Virus record (IMG/VR): IMGVR_UViG_3300042691_013622
Location: 1 to 33,849 of that record
Strand: one strand, 5' to 3'
Source of the DNA: a virus
Length of the DNA stretch: 33,849 nucleotides
Made by a program: the position numbers and the translations under genes. This document shows positions 1-33,849 of the stretch, one piece after another. Each line of letters opens with the position of its first letter. The first letter of the stretch is position 1. Under the pieces are notes generated by a model. The model did not search any database. It saw only the letters and a list, made by a program, of their open reading frames with translations, and was not told the origin of the DNA.

Positions 1-52
1 ATAGGTCGTTTTCTTTTGTGAATACGCCTGGTGATACTAATTTCTCTGCCAT
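1..52 (-). CDS. gp18: Tail sheath protein gp18, N-terminal fragment (runs off the left edge)
   Basis: The ATG at 52-50 opens a frame that stays open to the window edge and reads MAEKLVSPGVFTKENDL. This matches the start of T4-family contractile tail sheath proteins, where the SPGV..xEND segment near the N-terminus is characteristic. The sheath surrounds the tail tube and contracts to drive injection. Only 17 codons are visible. The upstream leader is AT-rich, has no Shine-Dalgarno (SD) sequence and carries a TATATTTATA motif 36 nt before the ATG. A sheath gene directly after the fibre/adhesin cassette fits late tail morphogenesis. Identification rests on the N-terminal signature alone. Confidence 0.82.
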   Translation of the reverse strand, partial: MAEKLVSPGVFTKENDL

Positions 53-120: not shown

Positions 121-1878
121 TTATGGTCTATATGTTGGTTGAAAATAATCGTATACTTGTTGAACTTCTGCGGTTGATAATACTCTGTTGTAGAATAATA
201 CAGGACCTAATTGGCATTTTGCATAATTATCAGCTCTTCCTAATTTTATGTCATAACTTGTTGTTGCTGCGAATGCCGAAACCGTTCCTGTTCCCACACT
301 ACTTCTATTTAAATAGTATGTAATACCGGCTGCAGCCGATACGGTTACTGCTACCATATGCCATGTATTTAATGCTGGTGCGGTAAATGTTTGAACGGAA
401 TTTGAAACTGTTCCTCTTGCTGTTGCGAAATGAAAACCATCCCAGTTATTAGCCCCACTACTATATAAATAAAAATTGTAATCTCTATCTGCACCTTCTT
501 TAGAAAAAAGTCCACCGTAAGTTGCATTTTGTGCAGTTGTTTGTCTAACCCATGCAATAAATGTGATTGCCGATGTATCAAATTGTGTTATTCCACCATT
601 GATATTTGAATTACGGTCTTTAAACCAATAAGTACCTGAACCATCAAGAGTCCAATATTTATCAATTCTCGAAGCACCGGCGTTATATGCAGGTGATGTT
701 CCACTATATCCCGCACTATTAGAAACACCAGAAGGTCTTACACCTGTATTATATCCTGAAAGGTCTAACCAATCGGTTGTAGGTGTACCTGTTGATGGTA
801 ATGTTTGTGATGGGAAGGAATATGCTTTAGATGGGTCTAAATACATTCTCAAACCAGATGAAGGTACAAATGGTTGTGCCGTTGTTCCTTTATTATGTGA
901 TATTGTTTTGTTTGCCAAATAAACGTCAGCGTTTTCTACATTAATAGTTACGATTTCAATATCTGCTTCCACAATAGAAATATCATAAACTTCTACTTCT
1001 GATAATCCGTTTATTTCATCATATGTTACAATTAAATCACCTATAAGAACATCTTCAACATTTTTGAAATGATATTTTTCAATTTCAGAATCCCAAACAT
1101 AAACTGGATGGGTACCTGTTGCTTTTATTATTCCATTATTTATATCAAAATATCCACTTGCAAAGTTGAAAACTAAATCTTGTACTTGAACTTCTTGGTA
1201 TGATCCTGATATACTTTCTTGCATAAAGAATCTCCAAGGAACATCTGAACTTTCTGGATCTAAATCTTCATCAGGTAATCCAACAGGAACCCATGCTTTG
1301 ATTGAATCACCAACTACTAAATCTTCAACATTTATTTCAGTTCCATCCGCTTTTGTTACTTTTGTTCCAAATAATAAACAGAAGTCTGGTTGGTTGATAG
1401 TATTATAAACATCCACTGCGTATAATGTTTTTGTAGATGTTGAATTATATCCTGTTGCTGCTAAATTAAATCCATCTGCGTATTTCATTGATAAAATTGC
1501 AGATGCCTCTGAATATGTTGATGAATTTATTGCTGCTGGTGTTATCGGGAAAGATGGTGATGCTCCTAAAGTTGGAGAACCTACTGAAAAGTTTGCATTA
1601 TTAAATGATACATCGTAGTTAGCTGATACGCTTCCAACTCTTGCACCATGCTTAGAACCGGCTGAACCGAATGTAAATGTTGCAGTTTCTTGTGTACTTT
1701 CTACAATATATGTATAGGTTGGTAAATTTACAGTTACCGAATCTATAGCAAAATCACCAATAGAAGCTTGAGTTCCTGCTGTTGCGTTCATAGCATTTAA
1801 TGAAACTTGCTGACTGGTTCTAGTCGAACCCTGCGTTGCTCTATATAAATTTCCTAAAGATAAATTGGTTTTTGCCAT
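121..1878 (-). CDS. Tail adhesin with internal intein-like Hint domain and C-terminal LamG domain
   Basis: 585 aa. Residues 1-166 are a Ser/Thr/Asn-rich beta-type N-terminal part, probably the virion-attachment side. Residues 167-329 are a Hint (intein-like) domain: it opens at Cys167 (CLLFGTKV), has a block-B motif TGTH at 254-257 and a second IGD turn near 279-281, and ends SHN at 327-329. The next residue is Lys330. Residues about 340-585 resemble a LamG/concanavalin-like jelly roll: GLRMYLDPS near 342, TFIAWVRQ near 439, WHMVAV near 506, LGPVLFYNR near 557, and a closing helix with EVQQVYDYF. LamG folds usually bind glycans, so this is a plausible receptor-binding protein. It lies between a glycosyltransferase gene and the sheath gene. 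Splicing or cleavage is inferred from the conserved residues; the LamG call rests on fold-like motifs. Confidence 0.8.
   Translation of the reverse strand: MAKTNLSLGNLYRATQGSTRTSQQVSLNAMNATAGTQASIGDFAIDSVTVNLPTYTYIVESTQETATFTFGSAGSKHGARVGSVSANYDVSFNNANFSVGSPTLGASPSFPITPAAINSSTYSEASAILSMKYADGFNLAATGYNSTSTKTLYAVDVYNTINQPDFCLLFGTKVTKADGTEINVEDLVVGDSIKAWVPVGLPDEDLDPESSDVPWRFFMQESISGSYQEVQVQDLVFNFASGYFDINNGIIKATGTHPVYVWDSEIEKYHFKNVEDVLIGDLIVTYDEINGLSEVEVYDISIVEADIEIVTINVENADVYLANKTISHNKGTTAQPFVPSSGLRMYLDPSKAYSFPSQTLPSTGTPTTDWLDLSGYNTGVRPSGVSNSAGYSGTSPAYNAGASRIDKYWTLDGSGTYWFKDRNSNINGGITQFDTSAITFIAWVRQTTAQNATYGGLFSKEGADRDYNFYLYSSGANNWDGFHFATARGTVSNSVQTFTAPALNTWHMVAVTVSAAAGITYYLNRSSVGTGTVSAFAATTSYDIKLGRADNYAKCQLGPVLFYNRVLSTAEVQQVYDYFQPTYRP
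892..1380 (-). other. Hint / bacterial intein-like (BIL-type) domain inside the adhesin
   Basis: It covers residues C167 to N329 of the adhesin, 163 aa, with no room for a homing endonuclease. The Hint hallmarks are present in order: N-terminal Cys followed by a glycine turn and a DG hairpin, a V-V-G-D turn, block B TxxH (T254, H257), and a C-terminal block ending His328-Asn329. The residue after Asn is Lys, not Cys/Ser/Thr. That is unlike standard inteins but matches A-type bacterial intein-like domains, which can cleave or splice without a +1 nucleophile. Confidence 0.8.
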
Positions 1879-1888
1879 TTAATTTTGA

Positions 1889-2887
1889 TTATAATCTATT
1901 ATAAATATTTAAAAGTTTTTCTTTCCACTCTTCTTTATTTGAAAAGTATCTATTCATCCAATTTTTAAGTTTTTCAAATTCTGTTTTACGGGTTTCATAA
2001 TCATCGTTACAAATCGTTTCGTAGGTCTTTTTAAATGTTTCCTCGTCAATCGCTTTGTATTTATAATCAAGTGGAACGTGCCATTTTTCATGTAGTATTG
2101 GAAGTTTCCCCCAATCCACTGCTTCAAAAATTCCGTATCCGAATGGTTCAAATTCAAAGCAAGAATGAGATATTCCCCAATCAAGTCCGTAGAACCTTTC
2201 TTTATGTTTGTAATCAAATTTGTAAACTTTTGATTTTTCGAATCTGTATCCATATTTTTTTCTGTAATATTTGTTAAAGGTTTCTGAATTTGTAAATATG
2301 ATAGAATCCAATCCATCAATATATTCTACATTTTTTCTACCTTCTGCTCTTGCCGCAAATCCTATTTTTAGATTATCTTTTAATTCCAATTTTTGTGAAA
2401 ATTCGTAATAATTGGAAATATGATGTAAATTTTCTGTTTGATAAGGAAAGTGATATAATCCTACCCAAATTTTATTTTTAATTTTATCAATTAATTCACT
2501 TTCATATTCCCAATTACCATACCAGTGAAGATATTCATCTTTTTGTTGTTGTGCAATTAATGATACTTTTGTTAAGTTGTGAAAAACGATTGAATCAATC
2601 TTTTCCAAATTTTGATGTATAGCTCTGGTTGGAGTGTAATGACCATGTAATATATGTATTCTCCTTGCACCATCTAATATTTTTATAATCTCATCTTCGT
2701 TAGTTTCCCAAATATGGTCTATATCAATTGGAAATTCTTCGTAATTATCTGGTTTTTTTCTATGGAAAAGTAGAAGTGGCTTCACTTCTAAATGAGGTGC
2801 CACTTCTTTTATCCATTCTGTTACCCATATATCTGCACCGCTATTAAACCATGGTCCTCCTGCGGTTGTGTAATAAACATCATACAT
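1889..2887 (-). CDS. GT-B type glycosyltransferase
   Basis: 332 aa. The N-terminal half has a Rossmann-like start and ILHGHYTP at 79-86. The C-terminal half has the GT4-like strand IGFAARAEGRKN (175-186) and the donor-binding signature EPFGYGIFEA (247-256), followed by a G-KLPI turn. This E-x-FG-x-x-x-x-E arrangement is typical of retaining GT-B enzymes using nucleotide sugars. It probably acts in the host cytoplasm. The acceptor is unknown: a virion fibre, given its place between two adhesin genes, or a host surface glycan. Its start follows the upstream fibre stop by 4 nt and its stop is 10 nt before the adhesin start, so it is co-transcribed with them. No SD is seen. Confidence 0.75.
   Translation of the reverse strand: MYDVYYTTAGGPWFNSGADIWVTEWIKEVAPHLEVKPLLLFHRKKPDNYEEFPIDIDHIWETNEDEIIKILDGARRIHILHGHYTPTRAIHQNLEKIDSIVFHNLTKVSLIAQQQKDEYLHWYGNWEYESELIDKIKNKIWVGLYHFPYQTENLHHISNYYEFSQKLELKDNLKIGFAARAEGRKNVEYIDGLDSIIFTNSETFNKYYRKKYGYRFEKSKVYKFDYKHKERFYGLDWGISHSCFEFEPFGYGIFEAVDWGKLPILHEKWHVPLDYKYKAIDEETFKKTYETICNDDYETRKTEFEKLKNWMNRYFSNKEEWKEKLLNIYNRL
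1900..1909 (-). promoter_or_regulatory. Candidate promoter for the Hint/LamG adhesin
   Basis: Sense strand AATATTTATA, 21 nt before the adhesin ATG at 1878. It lies inside the last codons of the glycosyltransferase gene. It is one base off the shared TATATTTATA motif, with the same orientation as the other copies. Confidence 0.4.
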
Positions 2888-2891
2888 TAAA

Positions 2892-5800
2892 TTATAACCC
2901 TTTTTGTTTCTTTAAATTTTCTATTTCTAAAGTTAATTTGTGTATTTGAGATTGTTGTTCTTTAATTGCTTCAACTAATAGACCTGTCATTTTTGAATAA
3001 TCCAATGATAAGAATCCATCTTCTCTTTCTTTTACTACTTCTGGTAAAACTTCCTGAACTTCTTGTGCAATCAAACCTGTTTTTGGTGTTGATTTTGTTA
3101 CTTCATTTACATCATCATTCCATTCCCAAGTCACACCATTCAATTTAGATACTTTTTGTAAAGCATTTGGAATAATTTGAATATTGTTCTTATGTCTTTT
3201 ATCCGAAGTATAGTATGCAGTAATATCACCGGTTGCTGTAATTGAACCATTAATTGTTAAACCTGCAAATGTAGGTGATGAAGTTGTTAATACCGCTTGG
3301 TTTATATATGTTCCAAATCCCGATGTTGATGCTATTGCAATTTGTGCTGAACCTGTTACAACCGTTCCAATTGCTGTTCTAATTGTTTCTGCAGTTACAC
3401 TACTACCTAAAGAAGTAGACTGTCCTGCAATTGTAATTGCCGAATTAGAAAGTTTTGCATTTGATATTGAACCGGCTAACATTGCATCTGTTACACCAAG
3501 ATTCGCAATTGAAATTGTTCTTGTTGTAGAAATATCACCACCACCTGTTAAACCAGAACCTGCTGTTATTGAAACTGCGGTATGGTCGATGTGTCTATTT
3601 GCTGAATATCCAGTTGTGGAATCATGCGATACTTGTGATGAACCACTAAATACACCAACAACATTTAATCTTGTCAATATACCACTTGCATAGTTTGTTG
3701 TAGCGGTTAAATCTATTTGAGATGAACCTGTTACAACTGTTCCAATTGCAGTTCTAATTGTTTCCGCAGTTACTGAACTACCCAATGCAGTTGATTGACC
3801 TGCTATTGTTATAGATGAGTTTGTTAATTTTGCATTTGAAATAGAACCGGCTAACATTGAATCAGTAACTCCACCGGTTGCGATGGATAATGTTCTTGTT
3901 GCAGAAATATCACCACCACCACTTAATCCACTTCCTGCCGTAATTGATACTGCAGTGTGGTCAATATGTCTATTTGCAGAATATCCGGTAGTTGAATCAT
4001 GTGATATTTGTGATGAACCCGATACTAATGTTGTACCTGTTGCGTAGAATGTACCATTTACTACGGAATTTGAACCTAATGTAATTAAAGTACCAGTATC
4101 GGTAATGTTTGAATCATTAAGATGTTCTTTACCACTTCCTTTTGGAACTCTATTGTTTGTAAGATATATTTCAGTACCTAAATTATCATAAGTTTCTGGA
4201 CCTAATACAAAGTGAGATGATGTTACATTTAACCCATTTCCTTTGTGTACGAAAATAAATTCATCATGTAATGAATCATATAAGAATGAACCAGAACTTC
4301 CTGCAGAGCCTGAATCATATATTGCAAGCCCACCAAATCTTAATGATGGATTATTTACATTTAATTGAATGATATTATCACCAATATCCAAACGAGATGA
4401 ACTAATGTTTTGAATTGATGATGAACCAGCAACAATTAAGTCAGCCGATATAAATAGAGAACCTGTAATCGTTTGATTTCCTACAAATGTATTTGCTGAA
4501 TCTATTCGTGCAAATGAACCACTCAAAGAACCCAATGTACTCCATTTTGTATCATTAGATGCAGTATATGCATTCAGTGATGCGGTACTTTCTTCTAATC
4601 TACTTAACTTATTACTTTGATTAGTGTTTGTTGTATCGTTTGAAGCAGTATATGTGTTCAATGATGCCAACATACCAACAACTTGTGCAGAACCCGAAAC
4701 TACCCCTCCATATAAATTAGCGGAAATACTTCCACCGTTTATTATCATATCAACATTTGATGTATCAGATGATGCGGAAATTATATTTGCTGAAATTCCA
4801 CTTAACCCTGTAAAGTTTATTTGAGATGAACCCGTTACAACCGTTCCAATTGCTGTTCTAATTGTTTCAGCAGTTATAGTTCCACCCAATGCAGTTGATT
4901 GTCCTGCTATTGTAATTGAAGAATTTGTTAAAGATGAATTACCAATATTAGAAAGTGTGTTTGAAGCTCCACTTATTGTTTTATTACTTAAAGTTACAGA
5001 TGCTGTTGCAAATGATCCTGTATATAATTCTAAATTAAGTGTTTCACCTTCTAATGCAGTTAATCTACTTATAGCACTTCCACTTGCAGTTGATAATTGG
5101 TCTAATCTACTATTTTGCGTATTATTTGTAGTAGTATTAGATGCAGTATATGCATTTATATCCGTAATATGCCCATTAACAGATGCAGTATATGTTTGTA
5201 ATGTGCTTGCTTTAGTTTCTAAATTTGTTATAGAAGTTTTTGCAGAACCACTCCATGTATTAACATCTGCAATATGTCCTAATGTGGATGCACTAAATGA
5301 ATTTAAACTTGCAGTTGATTCTTGTATTCTTGAAACTTGTGCTGCCATAGAAGCAGTTAAAGTTTGAAGAGTAGCATTTTTAGTTTCTAGTGATGCTGTA
5401 TATGTTCCTAAAGTAGTTGCTTTAGATTCTAAAGTTGTAATTCTTGTATTTTGAGAACCACTATCTGTTGATAATTGGTCTAATCTACTATTTTGTGTAT
5501 TATTAGTTGTATCGTTTGATGCAGTATATGTGTTTAATGCTGCTAAAATTCCAACAACTTGTGCCGAACTTGATACAACCGTTTCTACATTTAATTTTTC
5601 TTTAATCGTTGTATTGATTGAAGATGTAAATGAGTTAATATTTGAAATAGAAATATTGCTACTTCCTGATGTAGATTCTAAATTGTTTAATCTATTAACA
5701 CTTGCTGTATAAAACGATGCAAATGTGTTATCATTGGTAGTATCTACTGAATTAATTAAACTTACAATTTCTGCAAATGAGTCTTTATCAGCATCCGATG

Positions 5801-7154
5801 CTAATAAAATTGCATCAACTCTACCTTTTTCTATTAGTATTCTACTATCAACCGATGAACTATATGATGTAAATCCTGTTGTTGCTGATAATGTAACTTG
5901 TGATGACCCACTTATTACAGTTTCTGCATCCAATCTATTTTTAATAGTTGTATTAATTGATGAAGTAAATGAGTTTAAAGAAGTATTACCATTACTTGCA
6001 CTAAATGCATTTAAACTTGCAGTTGACTCTTGTATTCTGCTTATTTGAGATTGTACAGATGCAGTTAAAGTTTGTAAAGTAGAAAATTTAGTATCAACAC
6101 TTGCAGTATAAGTTTGTAATGTACTATCTTTGGTCAATTGAGATGCGCTAAATGCATTTAAACTTGCGGTACTTTCTTCTAGTCTACTTAATCTATTATT
6201 TTGTGTAGTATTTGTAGTATCATTTGATGCGGTATAATTATTTAAATTTGTTAATCTATTATTAACAGATTGAGAATAAGTTGTTACATCTCCTATACCA
6301 TTGATAGAACCACTAAATCCAATAGAAGATGAAACCGAACCGCTGAATACGAATAGGTCACCATACAAATGCGTATGATGTAATCCATTTGCTGATCCTG
6401 AATCTATTCTAAATATTGATAAACCATCACCTTTATGTATTGAAAGATAATCACCATTATAATTTCTTAAATGAAATGAGTTACCCGAAACACTATCTTC
6501 TAATCTCAATTCTGCAATCGATGAACTAATTGTTTGTGGTCCTTTAAATACATTTGAACCGGTGGTTGCATATGAACTTGTCAAATTACCTATTGTGTTC
6601 CATTTTATATTATTAGAACCCGTGTAAGCGTTTAATGAACCCAAAATATCAACAACTTGTGCTGAACCTGAAACTATTCCAGATGGTAAAGATGCTGATA
6701 AATTTATACTACCACTTGCTAACGAACTTGTTGTTACAAGGTTTTCGTTTGTAATTGTATTAACTATATTGCCACTACCATCTACTATTTTAATAGAACC
6801 CGTAGAGATGTATAAATCTCTCCAAATCTTTGTTACAGAACCTAAATCAAATGTATTTGTTACGGAAGGTATTAGTGATGAACTTAAATTTGCGGTTACT
6901 GTTACCGTATCAGATGTATTATCTCCAATTGTAATGTTGCCACCTAAAGTTAAATTACCATCAATTTTTGCATTTCCGGTGATATTTAAAGATGAACCTG
7001 AAATTCCTTGCGATGCTGAATTTATTAAGAGGGTTATATCTCCCGATTCACCACCTATTTGTAATGTTCCTAATGTAGTATTTACATATGGTTCTCCGAA
7101 TGCTAACGAACCTGATTTTTGTGCGGTTGTCCCACGTCTAAATTTAAGTGCCAT
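2892..7154 (-). CDS. Long repetitive tail fibre with C-terminal S74 self-cleaving chaperone
   Basis: 1420 aa. The N-terminus (MALKFRRGTTAQ ... LAFGEPYVNT) follows the basic-RG then GE pattern shared by fibre proteins in this window, probably a baseplate-anchoring domain. The body is Ser/Thr/Asn-rich, with repeats such as YTASNDTTN, RLEESTASLN and VVSGSAQVVG. Their heptad-like spacing suggests a trimeric coiled coil or beta-helix shaft. From about residue 1317 the motif TSDKRHKNNI begins a peptidase S74 / intramolecular chaperone domain, with GLIAQEVQEVLPEVV further on; this family trimerises fibres and then cuts itself off at the S-D motif. A coiled tail ends the protein. It is a likely host-binding side or long tail fibre. 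The receptor specificity cannot be read. Confidence 0.85.
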   Translation of the reverse strand: MALKFRRGTTAQKSGSLAFGEPYVNTTLGTLQIGGESGDITLLINSASQGISGSSLNITGNAKIDGNLTLGGNITIGDNTSDTVTVTANLSSSLIPSVTNTFDLGSVTKIWRDLYISTGSIKIVDGSGNIVNTITNENLVTTSSLASGSINLSASLPSGIVSGSAQVVDILGSLNAYTGSNNIKWNTIGNLTSSYATTGSNVFKGPQTISSSIAELRLEDSVSGNSFHLRNYNGDYLSIHKGDGLSIFRIDSGSANGLHHTHLYGDLFVFSGSVSSSIGFSGSINGIGDVTTYSQSVNNRLTNLNNYTASNDTTNTTQNNRLSRLEESTASLNAFSASQLTKDSTLQTYTASVDTKFSTLQTLTASVQSQISRIQESTASLNAFSASNGNTSLNSFTSSINTTIKNRLDAETVISGSSQVTLSATTGFTSYSSSVDSRILIEKGRVDAILLASDADKDSFAEIVSLINSVDTTNDNTFASFYTASVNRLNNLESTSGSSNISISNINSFTSSINTTIKEKLNVETVVSSSAQVVGILAALNTYTASNDTTNNTQNSRLDQLSTDSGSQNTRITTLESKATTLGTYTASLETKNATLQTLTASMAAQVSRIQESTASLNSFSASTLGHIADVNTWSGSAKTSITNLETKASTLQTYTASVNGHITDINAYTASNTTTNNTQNSRLDQLSTASGSAISRLTALEGETLNLELYTGSFATASVTLSNKTISGASNTLSNIGNSSLTNSSITIAGQSTALGGTITAETIRTAIGTVVTGSSQINFTGLSGISANIISASSDTSNVDMIINGGSISANLYGGVVSGSAQVVGMLASLNTYTASNDTTNTNQSNKLSRLEESTASLNAYTASNDTKWSTLGSLSGSFARIDSANTFVGNQTITGSLFISADLIVAGSSSIQNISSSRLDIGDNIIQLNVNNPSLRFGGLAIYDSGSAGSSGSFLYDSLHDEFIFVHKGNGLNVTSSHFVLGPETYDNLGTEIYLTNNRVPKGSGKEHLNDSNITDTGTLITLGSNSVVNGTFYATGTTLVSGSSQISHDSTTGYSANRHIDHTAVSITAGSGLSGGGDISATRTLSIATGGVTDSMLAGSISNAKLTNSSITIAGQSTALGSSVTAETIRTAIGTVVTGSSQIDLTATTNYASGILTRLNVVGVFSGSSQVSHDSTTGYSANRHIDHTAVSITAGSGLTGGGDISTTRTISIANLGVTDAMLAGSISNAKLSNSAITIAGQSTSLGSSVTAETIRTAIGTVVTGSAQIAIASTSGFGTYINQAVLTTSSPTFAGLTINGSITATGDITAYYTSDKRHKNNIQIIPNALQKVSKLNGVTWEWNDDVNEVTKSTPKTGLIAQEVQEVLPEVVKEREDGFLSLDYSKMTGLLVEAIKEQQSQIHKLTLEIENLKKQKGL

Positions 7155-7202: not shown

Positions 7203-10200
7203 CTATTTGCTTTCCAATTCTTTAACTCTTGCTGATAATTCTTTTATTGCTTCAATTAATACTGGTACTAATTTTACATAATCAACTGCTAAATATCCCG
7301 TTTCTCTTTCGGTTACCACTTCAGGTAACACTGATTGAACTTCTTGCGCAATCACACCCAAATCATGTCCTTTATGAGAATGTATTGTTTCAAATCCTTC
7401 TTTCCAATCATAAGTGTTACCACTAATTGATTCAACTTTTTCTAAAGCGTTTTGGATAGGATTTATGTTTTCTTTTAATCTTTCATCAGAAGAATAATAT
7501 GCTACTATATCACCTGTTGCTCTAATCTCACCACTTACCCCACTTGCCGCAGTTCCAATTCCCAATGACGCAAATTGTGGTGTTGCAGATGTATGTATAT
7601 CTTGTGGTGTAGAAAGTGTGATTGCGGCTGTTTCTGTTCCAGAACCTGCAACCGTTATTTGATTTGTTGTACCCGCAATTGTTGCAACATAGTTACCCGA
7701 TGTATCCGTTCCTAACACAACTGCATTTGCTCCAATAGTTGCAACGCCATTTGATGCAATTGTAATATCACCACTTACACCAGAATATACCTGTGATGAA
7801 CCACTAACTACACCCGTTGGTAATAATGGTGTAACTTGCGCTGCTCCACTAACAATACCGCTAGGTATATTTGATAATCCAATATATGAAACTTGCGATG
7901 AACCACTAACTACTCCTGTTGGTAATAACGGTGTAATTTGAGATGAACTTGAAACTATACCATTACTTATACCACTTAATTGTGTGAAATTAACTTGAGA
8001 TGAACCAGAAACTATTCCTCTTCCTTTAGCTTCATATCCTGCTGCAACTTCTGCTTCTGTAGCGTAAGTTGCATCTAATGATGAAGTAAATGAATTCAAT
8101 GAACTCAATATACCAATAACTTGTGATGAGCCAGATACGGTTCCAATTGGTAATAATGGAATAATTTGAGATGAACCTGAAACTATACCATTTGATATTC
8201 CACTTAATTGAGTAAAGTTTATTTGAGATGAACCTGAAACTATTCCTGCAGGTATATTACTTAATCCTAAATAAGAAACTTGTGATGAACCTGATACGAC
8301 TCCACCTTTTAAATCCGCAGTGATTGAACCACCGGTAATTGTAAAATCAATATTATTAGAATCGGTAGATGCTGAAATTATATTATTAGAAATTCCACTT
8401 AATCCTGTAAAGTTAACTTGAGAAGAACCTGAAACTATACCTCTGCCGGTTGTTTCGTAGCTACCTAATTGACCGGAACCGGATATTACACCCATGCCAT
8501 CTGTCAATACTTTTGCTTCACTATCTTTTTTACCTGCAATCCAAATATCATTTGTTGCATCCCAAAGAAGTGAACCCGATACAGTAGATGCAGCGGTTGC
8601 ATCTTTTACATAAATACCGGCAGTTGCTGCTGAACCTCCGTAATTTAATTCTAATATATTTTCACCAATATTAACTTGTGTAGAGTTAATTTGAGTTGTT
8701 GTTCCTAATACAGATAGGTTACCATTAATAGTTACATCCGTTCCACTTAAACCTATTGCGGTTTTAAGAGATGCAGTATAAGAATTTAATGATGATGTAC
8801 TTTCTTCAATTCTATTTAATCTATTATTTTGATTAGTATTTGTAGTATCATTTGAAGATGTATATGCGTTTATATCTGTTATGTGTCCATTTACACTTGC
8901 AGTATAAGTTTGTAAAGTGGTAGCTTTAGTTTCTAAATTTGTTATAGAAGTTTTTGCAGAACCACTCCATACATTTATATCAGCAACATGTCCATTTAGG
9001 GATGCAGTTGTTAAGTTAATACTTGCAGTTGATTCTTTTAATCTTGCAATTGTATCATTTAAACTTGCAGTATATTGATGTATAGATTGACTAAATGCCT
9101 GTAATGATTGTGTAGCTGAATTTATTGATAATAAAGATGCTTCCAATCCACCAGGACTCAAAATAGTTACGGTATATTCCAATGAATCCAATCTTGTATC
9201 AACTGATGTGGAGAATGGTTGGAATACGGAACCCGTCCATGTATTAAATGATGCAGTTTGTAGATTTAAAGATGCTGTTACTGATTCTAAAGTTGTATCC
9301 TTTTGTTTTTGTGAACCAGTCCATGCATTTATATCTGCAATATGCCCATTTATAGATGATGTGTATAAATTAATATCTGCAACATGTCCATTTATACTTG
9401 CGCTGAATGTGTTTAAACTCGCAGTCGATTCTTCTAATCTACTTAATCTATTATTTTGATTAGTATTAGTTGTATCATTACTTGCAGTATATAAATTTAA
9501 ACTTGCAGTTGATTCTTTTAATCTTGCAATTGTAGAATCTACTGATGCAGTATAAGTTTGTAAAGTAGAAAATTTAGTATCTACTGATGCAGTATAAGTT
9601 TGTAAAGTAGAAAATTTAGTATCTACTGATGCAGTATAAGTTTGTAAAGTAGAATCTTTTCCTTCTTGTGATGCACTAAATTCATTTAATGATGCCGTGC
9701 TTTCTTCGATTCTATTTAATCTATTATTTAAAGATGCTGTATAAGAATATAAAGAAGCTGTTGCATTGTTTAAAGATGCCGTTACAATTTCAATTGTGGA
9801 AAATTTAGTATTTACCGATGCAGTATAGGTTTGTAAAGTAGAATCTTTTCCTTCTTGTGATGCACTAAATGTATTTAATGATTGTAAAATTCCAACAACT
9901 TGTGCGGAACTTGATACAACAGAATCTCCCCCTGCTAAAAGAACTTTACTTTCAGCATCTTTTACACCCGCCTTCCAATAATCCAAAGTAGAATCCCATA
10001 TAATAGAACCAGTTGCCACATTTGGTGCAGTTGGGTCTTTTACATACAATCCACCATTTGCAGCTGCATTACCATTTAACTCTAAAATATTATCACCTAA
10101 TTGAATGGTGGTAGAATTAACTGCGGTAGTTGTTCCTGCTACAGTCAAATTTCCTTGAATTGTTACATTTTGTCCACTTACATCAATTGCCGTTTTTAGA

Positions 10201-11171
10201 GATGCTGTATATGATTCTATTTCACCTAATCTACTACTTGCTGATGCTGTAAATGTATTTAAAGATGCCGTTACAATTGATATTGTTACATCTTTTGAAT
10301 TTTGCGATGCAGTCCATGCATTTATATCCGCAACATGTCCATTTAGGGATGAAGTAAACGTATTATAAGATGATGTTATATTTGATATAATTACATCTTT
10401 TGAATTTTGCGATGCAGTCCATGCATTTATATCCGCAACATGTCCATTTAGGGATGCAGTTGTTAAGTTAATACTTGCAGTTGATTCTTCTAATCTTGTT
10501 AATCTATTATTTTGATTAGTGTTTGTGGTTTCATTTGAAGCAGTGTATGCATTCAAAGAACTTAATATTCCAACAACTTGTGCTGAACCTGAAAAAACTC
10601 CACCATATATGTTTGCAGATATAGAACCATTTGATATAATAATATCCACATTTGCACTATCAGATGATGCAGATACTATGTTTGAACTTATTCCTGCTAA
10701 TCCTGTAAAATTTACTTGAGATGAACCTGAAACTAAACCAGTAGGTAATGCGCTAATTATTTGACTTGATCCAGAAACTACTCCGTTTGTTGCTGCAATC
10801 GCACCTGATATAGATGTTGCATATACATTAGACCAATATGCATCAGTTGAACCAATATTTCTACTACCCTGTGGTATTAAATTAGTTGTAAATACACCCA
10901 AAGATTGGATTGTATCACCTGCTGCACCATCACCCAAAATAATATTACCATCAATTCTGACATTATTTGTAAAATATGCGTTTGATGCAGTTATATTTCC
11001 TGTCAATGCTATATCACCAACAACAGGTGCGTTAAGTGGTAATAAATTATATTTCGTAGAACCACTTCCAAATTGAATAGAACCACTACCTAAATGTAAA
11101 TACAATTCGGCTTCGACTAGTGAGGGACTTGCGTTTGATGAACCTTTTCTTAATGTAAATATAGCTGCCAT
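7203..11171 (-). CDS. Long repetitive tail fibre with C-terminal S74 self-cleaving chaperone (paralogue)
   Basis: 1322 aa, built like the 1420-aa fibre downstream. The N-terminal anchoring segment has a K-G-S start and then SLVEAELYLHLG. The shaft is long and made of recurring TASLN / HVADINAW / RLEESTAS units and VSGSSQV linkers, with two copies of an ILELN...YVKD module. A C-terminal S74 domain starts near residue 1227 with SSDERLKENI and contains GVIAQEVQSVLPEVV. S74 domains fold the trimer and are released autocatalytically. The shaft contains a 42-bp tandem repeat (9538-9654) and an exact 66-bp direct repeat (10286-10351, 10391-10456), so its length could change by recombination. No SD is seen. 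Confidence 0.85.
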   Translation of the reverse strand: MAAIFTLRKGSSNASPSLVEAELYLHLGSGSIQFGSGSTKYNLLPLNAPVVGDIALTGNITASNAYFTNNVRIDGNIILGDGAAGDTIQSLGVFTTNLIPQGSRNIGSTDAYWSNVYATSISGAIAATNGVVSGSSQIISALPTGLVSGSSQVNFTGLAGISSNIVSASSDSANVDIIISNGSISANIYGGVFSGSAQVVGILSSLNAYTASNETTNTNQNNRLTRLEESTASINLTTASLNGHVADINAWTASQNSKDVIISNITSSYNTFTSSLNGHVADINAWTASQNSKDVTISIVTASLNTFTASASSRLGEIESYTASLKTAIDVSGQNVTIQGNLTVAGTTTAVNSTTIQLGDNILELNGNAAANGGLYVKDPTAPNVATGSIIWDSTLDYWKAGVKDAESKVLLAGGDSVVSSSAQVVGILQSLNTFSASQEGKDSTLQTYTASVNTKFSTIEIVTASLNNATASLYSYTASLNNRLNRIEESTASLNEFSASQEGKDSTLQTYTASVDTKFSTLQTYTASVDTKFSTLQTYTASVDSTIARLKESTASLNLYTASNDTTNTNQNNRLSRLEESTASLNTFSASINGHVADINLYTSSINGHIADINAWTGSQKQKDTTLESVTASLNLQTASFNTWTGSVFQPFSTSVDTRLDSLEYTVTILSPGGLEASLLSINSATQSLQAFSQSIHQYTASLNDTIARLKESTASINLTTASLNGHVADINVWSGSAKTSITNLETKATTLQTYTASVNGHITDINAYTSSNDTTNTNQNNRLNRIEESTSSLNSYTASLKTAIGLSGTDVTINGNLSVLGTTTQINSTQVNIGENILELNYGGSAATAGIYVKDATAASTVSGSLLWDATNDIWIAGKKDSEAKVLTDGMGVISGSGQLGSYETTGRGIVSGSSQVNFTGLSGISNNIISASTDSNNIDFTITGGSITADLKGGVVSGSSQVSYLGLSNIPAGIVSGSSQINFTQLSGISNGIVSGSSQIIPLLPIGTVSGSSQVIGILSSLNSFTSSLDATYATEAEVAAGYEAKGRGIVSGSSQVNFTQLSGISNGIVSSSSQITPLLPTGVVSGSSQVSYIGLSNIPSGIVSGAAQVTPLLPTGVVSGSSQVYSGVSGDITIASNGVATIGANAVVLGTDTSGNYVATIAGTTNQITVAGSGTETAAITLSTPQDIHTSATPQFASLGIGTAASGVSGEIRATGDIVAYYSSDERLKENINPIQNALEKVESISGNTYDWKEGFETIHSHKGHDLGVIAQEVQSVLPEVVTERETGYLAVDYVKLVPVLIEAIKELSARVKELESK
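9538..9654 (-). repeat. 42-bp tandem repeat, about 2.8 copies, in a fibre shaft
   Basis: Copies start at 9538, 9580 and 9622. The first two are identical over 42 bp and the third matches for 33 bp. Each unit encodes 14 residues (STLQTYTASVDTKF), two heptads, so the frame and coiled-coil register survive gain or loss of a unit. Confidence 0.9.
10286..10351 (-). repeat. 66-bp exact direct repeat, copy A
   Basis: The 66 bp are identical to 10391-10456. The offset is 105 bp, which is 35 codons, so recombination between the copies would stay in frame. The copies encode the HVADINAWTASQNS-type shaft unit of the 1322-aa fibre. Confidence 0.88.
10391..10456 (-). repeat. 66-bp exact direct repeat, copy B
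   Basis: Second copy of the repeat at 10286-10351, in the same orientation and reading frame of the 1322-aa fibre. Confidence 0.88.
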
Positions 11172-31858: not shown

Positions 31859-33849
31859 TTAATAAAATAATCCTAATATTTGGTTAAGTGGTGCGAATGT
31901 TCCTGTAAGTTTATAGGTTTTTCCATTATAGAAAAATACTATACCTTCGGATGCAACAATTCTATCTATACCACCCAATTGATTTAATCTTTTTAATTCC
32001 TGTTTTAATTTTTGTATCTTTGTGGTATCACCACTTCCTCTAACATCCGATGCTACTGATTTAAATTTATTTTTAATAGCTCTAATTGCTTTTTCAGGAT
32101 GAACAGTCAATACTGAACTTACAAAATCCAAAACATCCGCACCTACACCTAAAAATATTTCTTCAAAAGCTTTCATATTATCTTTCTGTTGTTTTGGAAT
32201 ATTTACTTTATCATTATCCATTGACCACTTTTGTAATTCTGGGTTTGATATTGTATTTAAACGAAAACTTTTATCACCAAATGCCCATCTTCTTATCAAT
32301 GCTTCTTTTGTTAATTTATCAACTTTTACAGGAGCTTTTGAATCTATAAAATTTTCCCACCAGCTTTGATGATAAACCGCAACGGTATCACTATCATCCA
32401 AATTAAATTGAGATTGTAATTTTTGAAGTTTAGATAAATATTTACCTTGCTTTGATGATAAATTTTCATCTTTTGGAATGGATGTAATTGGAGGTCCTTG
32501 AATTGTATATTTTGATTGAACATCTGCGTTTACTTGCTTAATCATTCCTGCCAATGTAGATGATGCTCCCTGGTCTGCTCCAATTGCAATTCCCTTTTCA
32601 TCATAACAAGTTGTATTATGAAATACTAAAAGAGCTTGTCCATAAGGAATAACATTTACACTTTGTGGCCAAATCACTTCTAAATTCATAAAACATTTAC
32701 CTTCATTAAATATTTTTTTTCTTTGTGCTTCGGAAAGTGAACTGATTGCCGCTGAAAGGTCTTTCATTGCGTAGTTATATGCATCTGTCAATCCACCTCT
32801 ACCACCAAATTTAGATGCCACACCTTCTATACCCATAGCATTTGCTCCCGCATTTGCAAGGTGTCCTTTATTTCTTGCAGCTATTAATCTGCCATTTTTC
32901 CAACTAATTGCAAGTGCTTGTCCATCTGTTTTTTCTCTTACTACACCCAAATCACCATTTAATGCACCTGTGATTATATTTTTAAGGTCGCCAAATGTTA
33001 AATCCATATCATCAAAAGGATGCGACATGTGTCCATATGCACCACCTTCTAATAAAAGCCCTTCATTTAGATTAGGTTGAATATTTAATTCCTTTTCCAT
33101 TTGGGTTATCTCTTTGTAATCCATATTTCTTAACTCTCTTGCTACTGCATTTGCGTTTGCTGGCATATTTGCTCTACCAAAAAGATATGCATTTATTCTT
33201 TTACGAAAAGTTGCATTTCTGTATAACTTCATTATATTTGCCAAATGAACATCATTACTTCCCATTTCATCTACCTTACGAAATGTGGTTGCTTGCTTTC
33301 CGTTTATTGTTGGCATTCCGTGTGGGTCCTCACCTATATCTTTAACTTGTACTTTTTTGTTTTTAAATTTACCCATCAAAACAGTATCACCCTTATCAAT
33401 ATCTACATTAATATCTTCGTTGTAAATTTGTTTGTTGATTCTACCATATTCTCTCATTAAGATTCCTGCAACAGCGTGTGCCTGATTTTCAATTGGGGAA
33501 CCATCTTTACCATCAGTTTCTGGATTTCTAACCAATCCCATTTCATCTTGCTTTCTATGAACCATCTCATGTGCAAGTGTTCTTAATATATCTGCTGTTA
33601 ATCTACCTTCGGTTGCAACATATATTTCTTTAGTATCAGGATTAAAACCACCTAAACTACTCTTTACTTCTGCAAATTCTCTACCACCTACTAAACTTAT
33701 TTTTGGAGTTTCTTTTAGTTTTAATCTTTGGGTTGCAAACTCCACAAAATGCTGAATTGATTGTTGTTTTGTTTCGGATAGATTTTCTTTTAATAAATCC
33801 GCCGCATCTTGCTTTGGTTTATTTTTTTTATATTCTTCTATTGATTTTA
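31859..33849 (-). CDS. Fused zinc metallopeptidase and nucleotidyltransferase-like protein, 5' end outside window
   Basis: The frame is open to the right edge (at least 34 residues upstream of an internal GTG at 33745), so the true start is not visible. Counting from that GTG, LAHEMVHRKQDEMG (58-71) is an HExxH zinc-peptidase site and ENQAHAVAG (from Glu86) likely supplies the third ligand. From about 235 a second domain begins: REKTDGQALAI (270-280) resembles motif I (K-x-D-G) of DNA/RNA ligases, AARNKGHL the next motif, NLEVIWP (354-360) motif III, and EGIVFFYNGKTYKLTG (600-615) motifs IV and V. The ligase reading is inference. About 240 extra residues separate motifs III and IV. It is upstream of the packaging genes, with unknown role. 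Confidence 0.65.
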   Translation of the reverse strand, partial: KSIEEYKKNKPKQDAADLLKENLSETKQQSIQHFVEFATQRLKLKETPKISLVGGREFAEVKSSLGGFNPDTKEIYVATEGRLTADILRTLAHEMVHRKQDEMGLVRNPETDGKDGSPIENQAHAVAGILMREYGRINKQIYNEDINVDIDKGDTVLMGKFKNKKVQVKDIGEDPHGMPTINGKQATTFRKVDEMGSNDVHLANIMKLYRNATFRKRINAYLFGRANMPANANAVARELRNMDYKEITQMEKELNIQPNLNEGLLLEGGAYGHMSHPFDDMDLTFGDLKNIITGALNGDLGVVREKTDGQALAISWKNGRLIAARNKGHLANAGANAMGIEGVASKFGGRGGLTDAYNYAMKDLSAAISSLSEAQRKKIFNEGKCFMNLEVIWPQSVNVIPYGQALLVFHNTTCYDEKGIAIGADQGASSTLAGMIKQVNADVQSKYTIQGPPITSIPKDENLSSKQGKYLSKLQKLQSQFNLDDSDTVAVYHQSWWENFIDSKAPVKVDKLTKEALIRRWAFGDKSFRLNTISNPELQKWSMDNDKVNIPKQQKDNMKAFEEIFLGVGADVLDFVSSVLTVHPEKAIRAIKNKFKSVASDVRGSGDTTKIQKLKQELKRLNQLGGIDRIVASEGIVFFYNGKTYKLTGTFAPLNQILGLFY

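Follow-up and report, generated by a model that had tools for sequence, protein, structure and literature searches.

A T4-like virus encodes, in its tail module, a 585-amino-acid (aa) adhesin-like protein in which a Hint domain of the A-type bacterial intein-like (BIL) class is fixed between an N-terminal domain and a C-terminal LamG-like lectin part. We consider it probable (about 60%) that this Hint domain processes its own protein, giving a mixture of spliced and cleaved chains; the reaction steps and the product mixture proposed below are drawn by analogy from known A-type BILs.

A Hint domain within a tail-module gene

The window, by which we mean the whole 33,849-nucleotide stretch of DNA analyzed, comes from an IMG/VR-type virus record of 33.8 kb. 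It encodes a Gp23 capsid protein, a T4-type portal, and a large terminase, as in a T4-like virus. Judged by terminase and capsid, its closest relatives in culture are Immutovirus phages of Flavobacterium and the Microcystis phage Mel-JY01 (51 to 54% identity; 54% for TerL and 51% for MCP in Immutovirus). On the minus strand, in the order of transcription, tail fiber genes with S74 chaperone ends are followed by a 332-aa gene, the 585-aa gene, and, last, a tail sheath gene whose start lies about 70 bases beyond the stop codon of the 585-aa gene. A 238-kb relative (L001) has the identical gene order and then runs on into a sheath (phrog_23 match, E = 1.2e-69), a tube, and a baseplate hub match, which places the 585-aa gene in the tail module. 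The features are as follows.

1 to 52, minus strand: start of the tail sheath (gp18-like) gene (MAEKLVSPGVFTKENDL..), truncated where the contig stops; identical to the start of the L001 sheath
121 to 1878, minus strand: adhesin-like gene, 585 aa, with ATG at 1878, stop at 121 to 123, and full-length homologues
124 to 870, minus strand: LamG/ConA-like lectin part, residues 337 to 585, with lectin folds and homologue profile matches; distal residues 430 to 585 are the most variable
886 to 891, minus strand: K330-G331, the +1 and +2 residues, invariant
892 to 897, minus strand: H328-N329, predicted Asn cyclization pair, invariant
892 to 1380, minus strand: Hint domain, C167 to N329, 163 aa, A-type BIL class by profile, model, and alignment
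1108 to 1119, minus strand: block B TGTH, with T254 and H257 both invariant
1378 to 1380, minus strand: C167, predicted N-S acyl shift nucleophile, invariant
1381 to 1398, minus strand: N-flank INQPDF, residues 161 to 166, with N162, D165, and F166 invariant
1399 to 1878, minus strand: N-terminal domain, residues 1 to 160, family specific, presumably attached to the virion
1889 to 2887, minus strand: neighbor gene, 332 aa, no family match; adjoins the adhesin gene in L001 too

The tail-module location and the lectin fold together suggest an adhesin, in which the N-terminal 160 aa would face the virion and the LamG part would bind the host. The protein reads ..NQPDF-C167LLFGTK.. at the N-terminal junction, T254GTH257P in block B, and ..ISH328N329-K330GTTAQP at the C-terminal junction, with codons at 1380 to 1378 for C167 and at 894 to 892 for N329. 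The first-pass annotation had placed a 163-aa Hint domain with these same catalytic residues at 892 to 1380, and both coordinates and residues proved exact on the translation, as did the 422 aa it expected after splicing (585 − 163).

Pfam by itself was too weak to establish a Hint domain (PF01079, E = 0.077, and PF13403, E = 0.087, on the whole 585-aa protein); neither Pfam nor NCBIfam gave a significant Hint or LamG call on the window's own whole protein, and its single sequence had no significant match in the PDB. The domain was confirmed by a match to phrog_38766 over residues 147 to 335 (E = 2.4e-8), by a profile including relatives that matched the Clostridium BIL 2lwy in the PDB (E = 1.2e-6), by an AF2 model of the isolated domain (pLDDT 78), and by matches to other phage Hint proteins. 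The best PDB structure matches of the model were 6tmm/6y75 (BIL2; E = 1e-7) and 2lwy (BIL; TM 0.74), with the RadA intein 4e2u and hedgehog 1at0 among further matches, and in its predicted fold the domain resembles BIL domains most, and inteins and hedgehog less. Low-confidence linkers lie just outside both junctions in the AF2 model (residues 157 to 165 and 331 to 335). The LamG-like domain reported downstream of the Hint domain also held up: the Laminin_G_3 profile was matched by 25 of 36 homologues (best E = 5.6e-17), with the window's own sequence below threshold, and the C-terminal part matched lectin-type folds. A free-standing Immutovirus gene annotated as a structural protein was matched by the LamG part over 97% of its length; these standalone proteins are similar to it end to end (28% identity) and lie near tail genes, but unlike the window protein, they have neither a Hint domain nor the N-domain. 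Flavobacterium phage immuto carries two such LamG structural genes in tandem, free-standing and without Hint (L081, 5983 to 7348).

Class membership and an invariant active site

As judged from its residues, the domain falls within the definition of A-type BILs. It combines the Hint fold with an N-terminal Cys, a TxxH in block B, and a C-terminal His-Asn; the +1 residue is Lys330 in 151 of 151 sequences, with no Cys, Ser, or Thr; and the host protein is variable and modular rather than a conserved enzyme. Canonical inteins have Cys, Ser, or Thr at +1 and are present sporadically, with empty alleles and often an endonuclease, whereas here the residue is Lys and every intact copy carries the domain. 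Hedgehog (Hog) proteins have a C-terminal Hint plus a sterol-recognition region, whereas this Hint is internal and followed by LamG. Fold, profile, and the invariant +1 residue thus bear out the earlier assignment to the BIL type rather than to classical inteins. The A-type BIL of Clostridium thermocellum (2lwy) shares the Hint fold, Cys1, TxxH, C-terminal HN, a non-nucleophilic +1 residue, and a variable modular host protein. Unlike it, the window domain (18 to 19% identity) is longer at 163 aa, has an invariant Lys-Gly at +1/+2, sits in a phage tail-module adhesin, and is never absent in its family. BIL2 of Tetrahymena BUBL1, the best structural match at 17% identity, belongs to a eukaryotic polyubiquitin locus, unlike the phage tail gene.

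We compared the protein across IMG/VR homologues, which make up a large family in environmental T4-like phages. The order N-domain, Hint, LamG was found in all 356 ORFs from 386 loci, many of which overlap, leaving about 150 distinct; the combination of Hint and LamG singled out by the first-pass annotation is therefore universal in intact family members. C167, T254, H257, H328, N329, K330, and G331 were 100% conserved in 151 distinct sequences. The codons of these residues vary synonymously, including those of H257, H328, N329, and G331, with the exception of C167, which is always TGT; because the codons vary while the residues stay fixed, the constraint acts on the protein. Loss of key residues in all homologues, which the first-pass annotation said would count against its reading, was absent, the five catalytic residues being invariant in about 150 distinct homologues. 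Among 112 representatives below 95% identity, 20% of Hint positions were invariant, and the probability that five randomly picked Hint positions would all be invariant was 2e-4. Purifying selection is not specific to Hint: dN/dS was 0.26 to 0.31 in every domain for which it was computed. The least variable segments were the flanks, residues 141 to 166 and 330 to 339, with an entropy of 0.41 bits versus 1.03 to 1.45 elsewhere outside Hint, which fits a position of both flanks within the active site. Catalytic residues for the N-terminal and C-terminal reactions are both kept, not those of one side alone. In our reading, this alignment pattern probably reflects selection for a functional active site in which both junctions are held; Lys330 could also be a structural residue.

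Lys at +1 is common within the class. A second scan of bacterial genomes, with the tandem phage Hints described below, found 135 domains that were used solely for a tally of this position; by profile, the residue in 73 of them was most often Ser (18), then Lys (11), Asp (10), and Thr (8). An invariant Lys at +1 across a whole family was unseen in the other Hint sets examined. The window's own Hint profile found no relatives in the bacterial genomes scanned.

Searching from the N-domain and LamG patterns, we found no intact Hint-less allele among the roughly 150 distinct homologues. ORFs with only LamG or only the N-domain run off the end of a contig; the exceptions are four broken genes (L133, L225, L255, and L380), which carry a frameshift, a small deletion, or one in-frame TGA; we considered these as split inteins and rejected that reading. 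The TGA in L225 (9305 to 9307) lies six codons ahead of the His-Asn pair in an otherwise intact gene and may reflect a sequencing error, a mutation, or recoding. No homing endonuclease was found in the Hint domain, and 163 aa leaves no room for one. Because neither an intact Hint-less allele nor a homing endonuclease was seen, the domain is a fixed working part and not a mobile intein.

The regions around this fixed part behave as modules. Pairwise identities of the N-domain, Hint, and LamG were weakly correlated (0.13 to 0.24), versus 0.63 for the two halves of Hint, and the sharpest change points, at which exchange is clear, fell at about residues 340 to 440. For example, L137 and L134 are 98% identical through residue 336 and 41% identical beyond it. 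The distal half of LamG is the most variable part of the protein, and as many as two thirds of LamG sites differ between homologues. Block-to-block correlation was also low at both junctions, but those blocks vary little, and we make no claim that exchange occurs precisely at the Hint edges. Host-range modules look like this, with a base that is conserved and a tip that is exchanged; the tip would have a receptor role.

Candidate products and competing explanations

A-type BILs that end in HN and lack a +1 nucleophile are reported to splice, but with cleavage products dominating; they form an N-terminal thioester and undergo Asn cleavage, which releases an amine able to attack that thioester (PMC4031507). 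By analogy, C167, aided by T254 and H257, would attack the F166-C167 peptide bond to form a thioester, and N329, aided by H328, would cyclize to free LamG with Lys330 as its new N terminus. The thioester would be resolved in part by the Lys330 amine, rejoining the N-domain to LamG in a 422-aa protein with the Hint removed, and in part by water or another amine, giving separate chains. The computed masses are 63.2 kDa for the precursor, 35.5 for N-domain plus Hint, 18.2 for Hint, 27.8 for LamG, 45.0 for the spliced protein, and 46.0 for Hint plus LamG, the last two being told apart by mass spectrometry rather than on gels. Each form has its own computed monoisotopic tryptic peptide: TLYAVDVYNTINQPDFCLLFGTK at 2634.30 for the precursor, TLYAVDVYNTINQPDFK at 1999.99 for the alpha-spliced form, and TLYAVDVYNTINQPDF at 1871.89 for the hydrolyzed form. 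An isopeptide branch on Lys330 would appear as KGTTAQPFVPSSGLR joined to the N-part, at 3398.71, uncut after Lys330. Because Hint was never lost in the 356 N-Hint-LamG ORFs, simple excision is a poor reason for its presence, and the product probably lies beyond what a gene without Hint could give, either separate chains or an unusual bond.

A selfish mini-intein that simply splices out would share the fold and motifs, and phage inteins are common. Here, however, Lys stands at +1, there is no endonuclease, none of the roughly 150 distinct homologues is an empty allele, and the site lies in a variable protein rather than a conserved enzyme motif; we give this explanation almost no weight. Retention of an inactive Hint as a structural spacer is very unlikely; related phages do have tandem Hints, some without the first Cys, and decay into scaffolds happens, but here the five catalytic residues are invariant though the LamG parts have diverged so widely, and five Hint positions picked at random would all be invariant with only the 2e-4 chance given above.

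Cleavage without rejoining would cut the chain at N329-K330, and perhaps at F166-C167; LamG would then be its own chain, either shed from the tail or bound to it noncovalently. The invariant HN pair agrees with this, the free-standing Immutovirus gene favors a LamG part that acts as its own chain, and in polymorphic toxins Hint lies directly ahead of a released C-terminal domain (PMC3482391). The window protein resembles these PT-HINT proteins in that its Hint precedes an exchangeable C-terminal domain, but that domain is a lectin rather than a toxin, in a phage protein rather than a secreted bacterial one. Given that the residues for the N-terminal reaction are equally invariant, and that the binding domain would be lost if cleavage came before assembly, no timing signal being known, we regard cleavage alone as unlikely, though not implausible. 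Conjugation, in which the thioester would link the N-domain through Phe166, by an isopeptide or amide bond, to an amine of the Lys330 side chain, another virion protein, or the host surface, draws on BIL2, the nearest fold match, which reportedly couples to a lysine in its C-side partner through an isopeptide bond (PMC8616854). Lys330 is invariant here, versus Lys in 11 of 73 bacterial Hints, and several phage structural proteins end right after Hint in a hedgehog-like layout. The similarity to BIL2 is 17% identity, however, and other Hints have Lys at +1 without known conjugation, so that we find this explanation distinctly improbable and are more skeptical still of the specific claim that the virion-side domain is joined via Phe166 to the Lys330 side-chain amine or an outside amine. 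The preferred reading remains a mixture of spliced and cleaved chains.

The chemistry and the class are already known, and Hint domains in phage structural proteins are already annotated. The first-pass annotation's view of this maturation as unusual is fair for phages, but besides those annotated domains, BILs within a bacterial adhesin have been published (PMC3091684). The open literature searched gave no description of an A-type BIL fixed between the base and the exchangeable lectin of a phage tail protein, and no native role of A-type BILs was found in the literature examined; this family, with its roughly 150 distinct versions and unchanging active site, offers a natural series for reading the product and hence the role. 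If the processing is real, self-catalyzed peptide chemistry would be a way for phages to mature, tether, or shed a host-binding lectin, in addition to the S74-type chaperone domains of the two adjacent fiber genes. If the isopeptide reading is true, the result would be a branched phage adhesin or a covalent host tether, made without ATP by the phage protein alone.

Related phage Hints and neighboring genes

Hint domains recur in phage stalk and fiber proteins, where they are annotated but no explanation was found in the literature searched. The closest named phage relatives are the phrog_38766 virion structural proteins of Alexandravirus and Yoloswagvirus (Erwinia and Dickeya phages; E = 2e-8), which are likewise encoded in virion/tail-fiber operons. 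Unlike the window protein, they have no LamG, and their Hint is C-terminal, after a collagen-like stalk, and precedes a conserved tail of 10 residues whose +1 position is Thr in most. Related phage Hints are often C-terminal, with 1 to 13 residues after HN, and in a 484-kb uncultured phage the Hint protein ends ..FHNKH. Joining of a C-extein looks pointless for such short tails, and these proteins, together with the fixation of Hint in the window family, suggest processing beyond silent excision.

Collagen-stalk virion proteins ending in Hint and a short tail, mostly TDIVAKAEKT-like, were seen in Erwinia, Dickeya, Yersinia, and Alcaligenes phages (L082, 5104 to 6543, and homologues in L083, L084, L387, L389, and L390). 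Relatives of the window phage encode 650- to 770-aa proteins in which two or three Hint-like domains stand in tandem (L328, 37 to 1983; L329, 4 to 2160; L330, 1057 to 3354, minus strand; phrog_21587, function unknown). The first Hint in these lacks its Cys, and one protein ends exactly in ..HNK while the others end in a Vint-type Hint.

The 332-aa protein next to the adhesin (1889 to 2887, minus strand) has no Pfam or PHROG match, and a relative with 36% identity adjoins the Hint protein of the 484-kb phage (L471, 4368 to 5387). It may be a glycosyltransferase. An open-ended protein of at least 662 aa at 31859 to 33847 (minus strand), with no significant family match, has an HEMVH metallopeptidase-like motif near its N terminus. 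The two fiber genes at 2892 to 7154 and 7203 to 11171 (minus strand) encode very long Ser/Thr-rich proteins with endosialidase-type (S74) chaperone ends and repeated SGSSQ/TASxN motifs.
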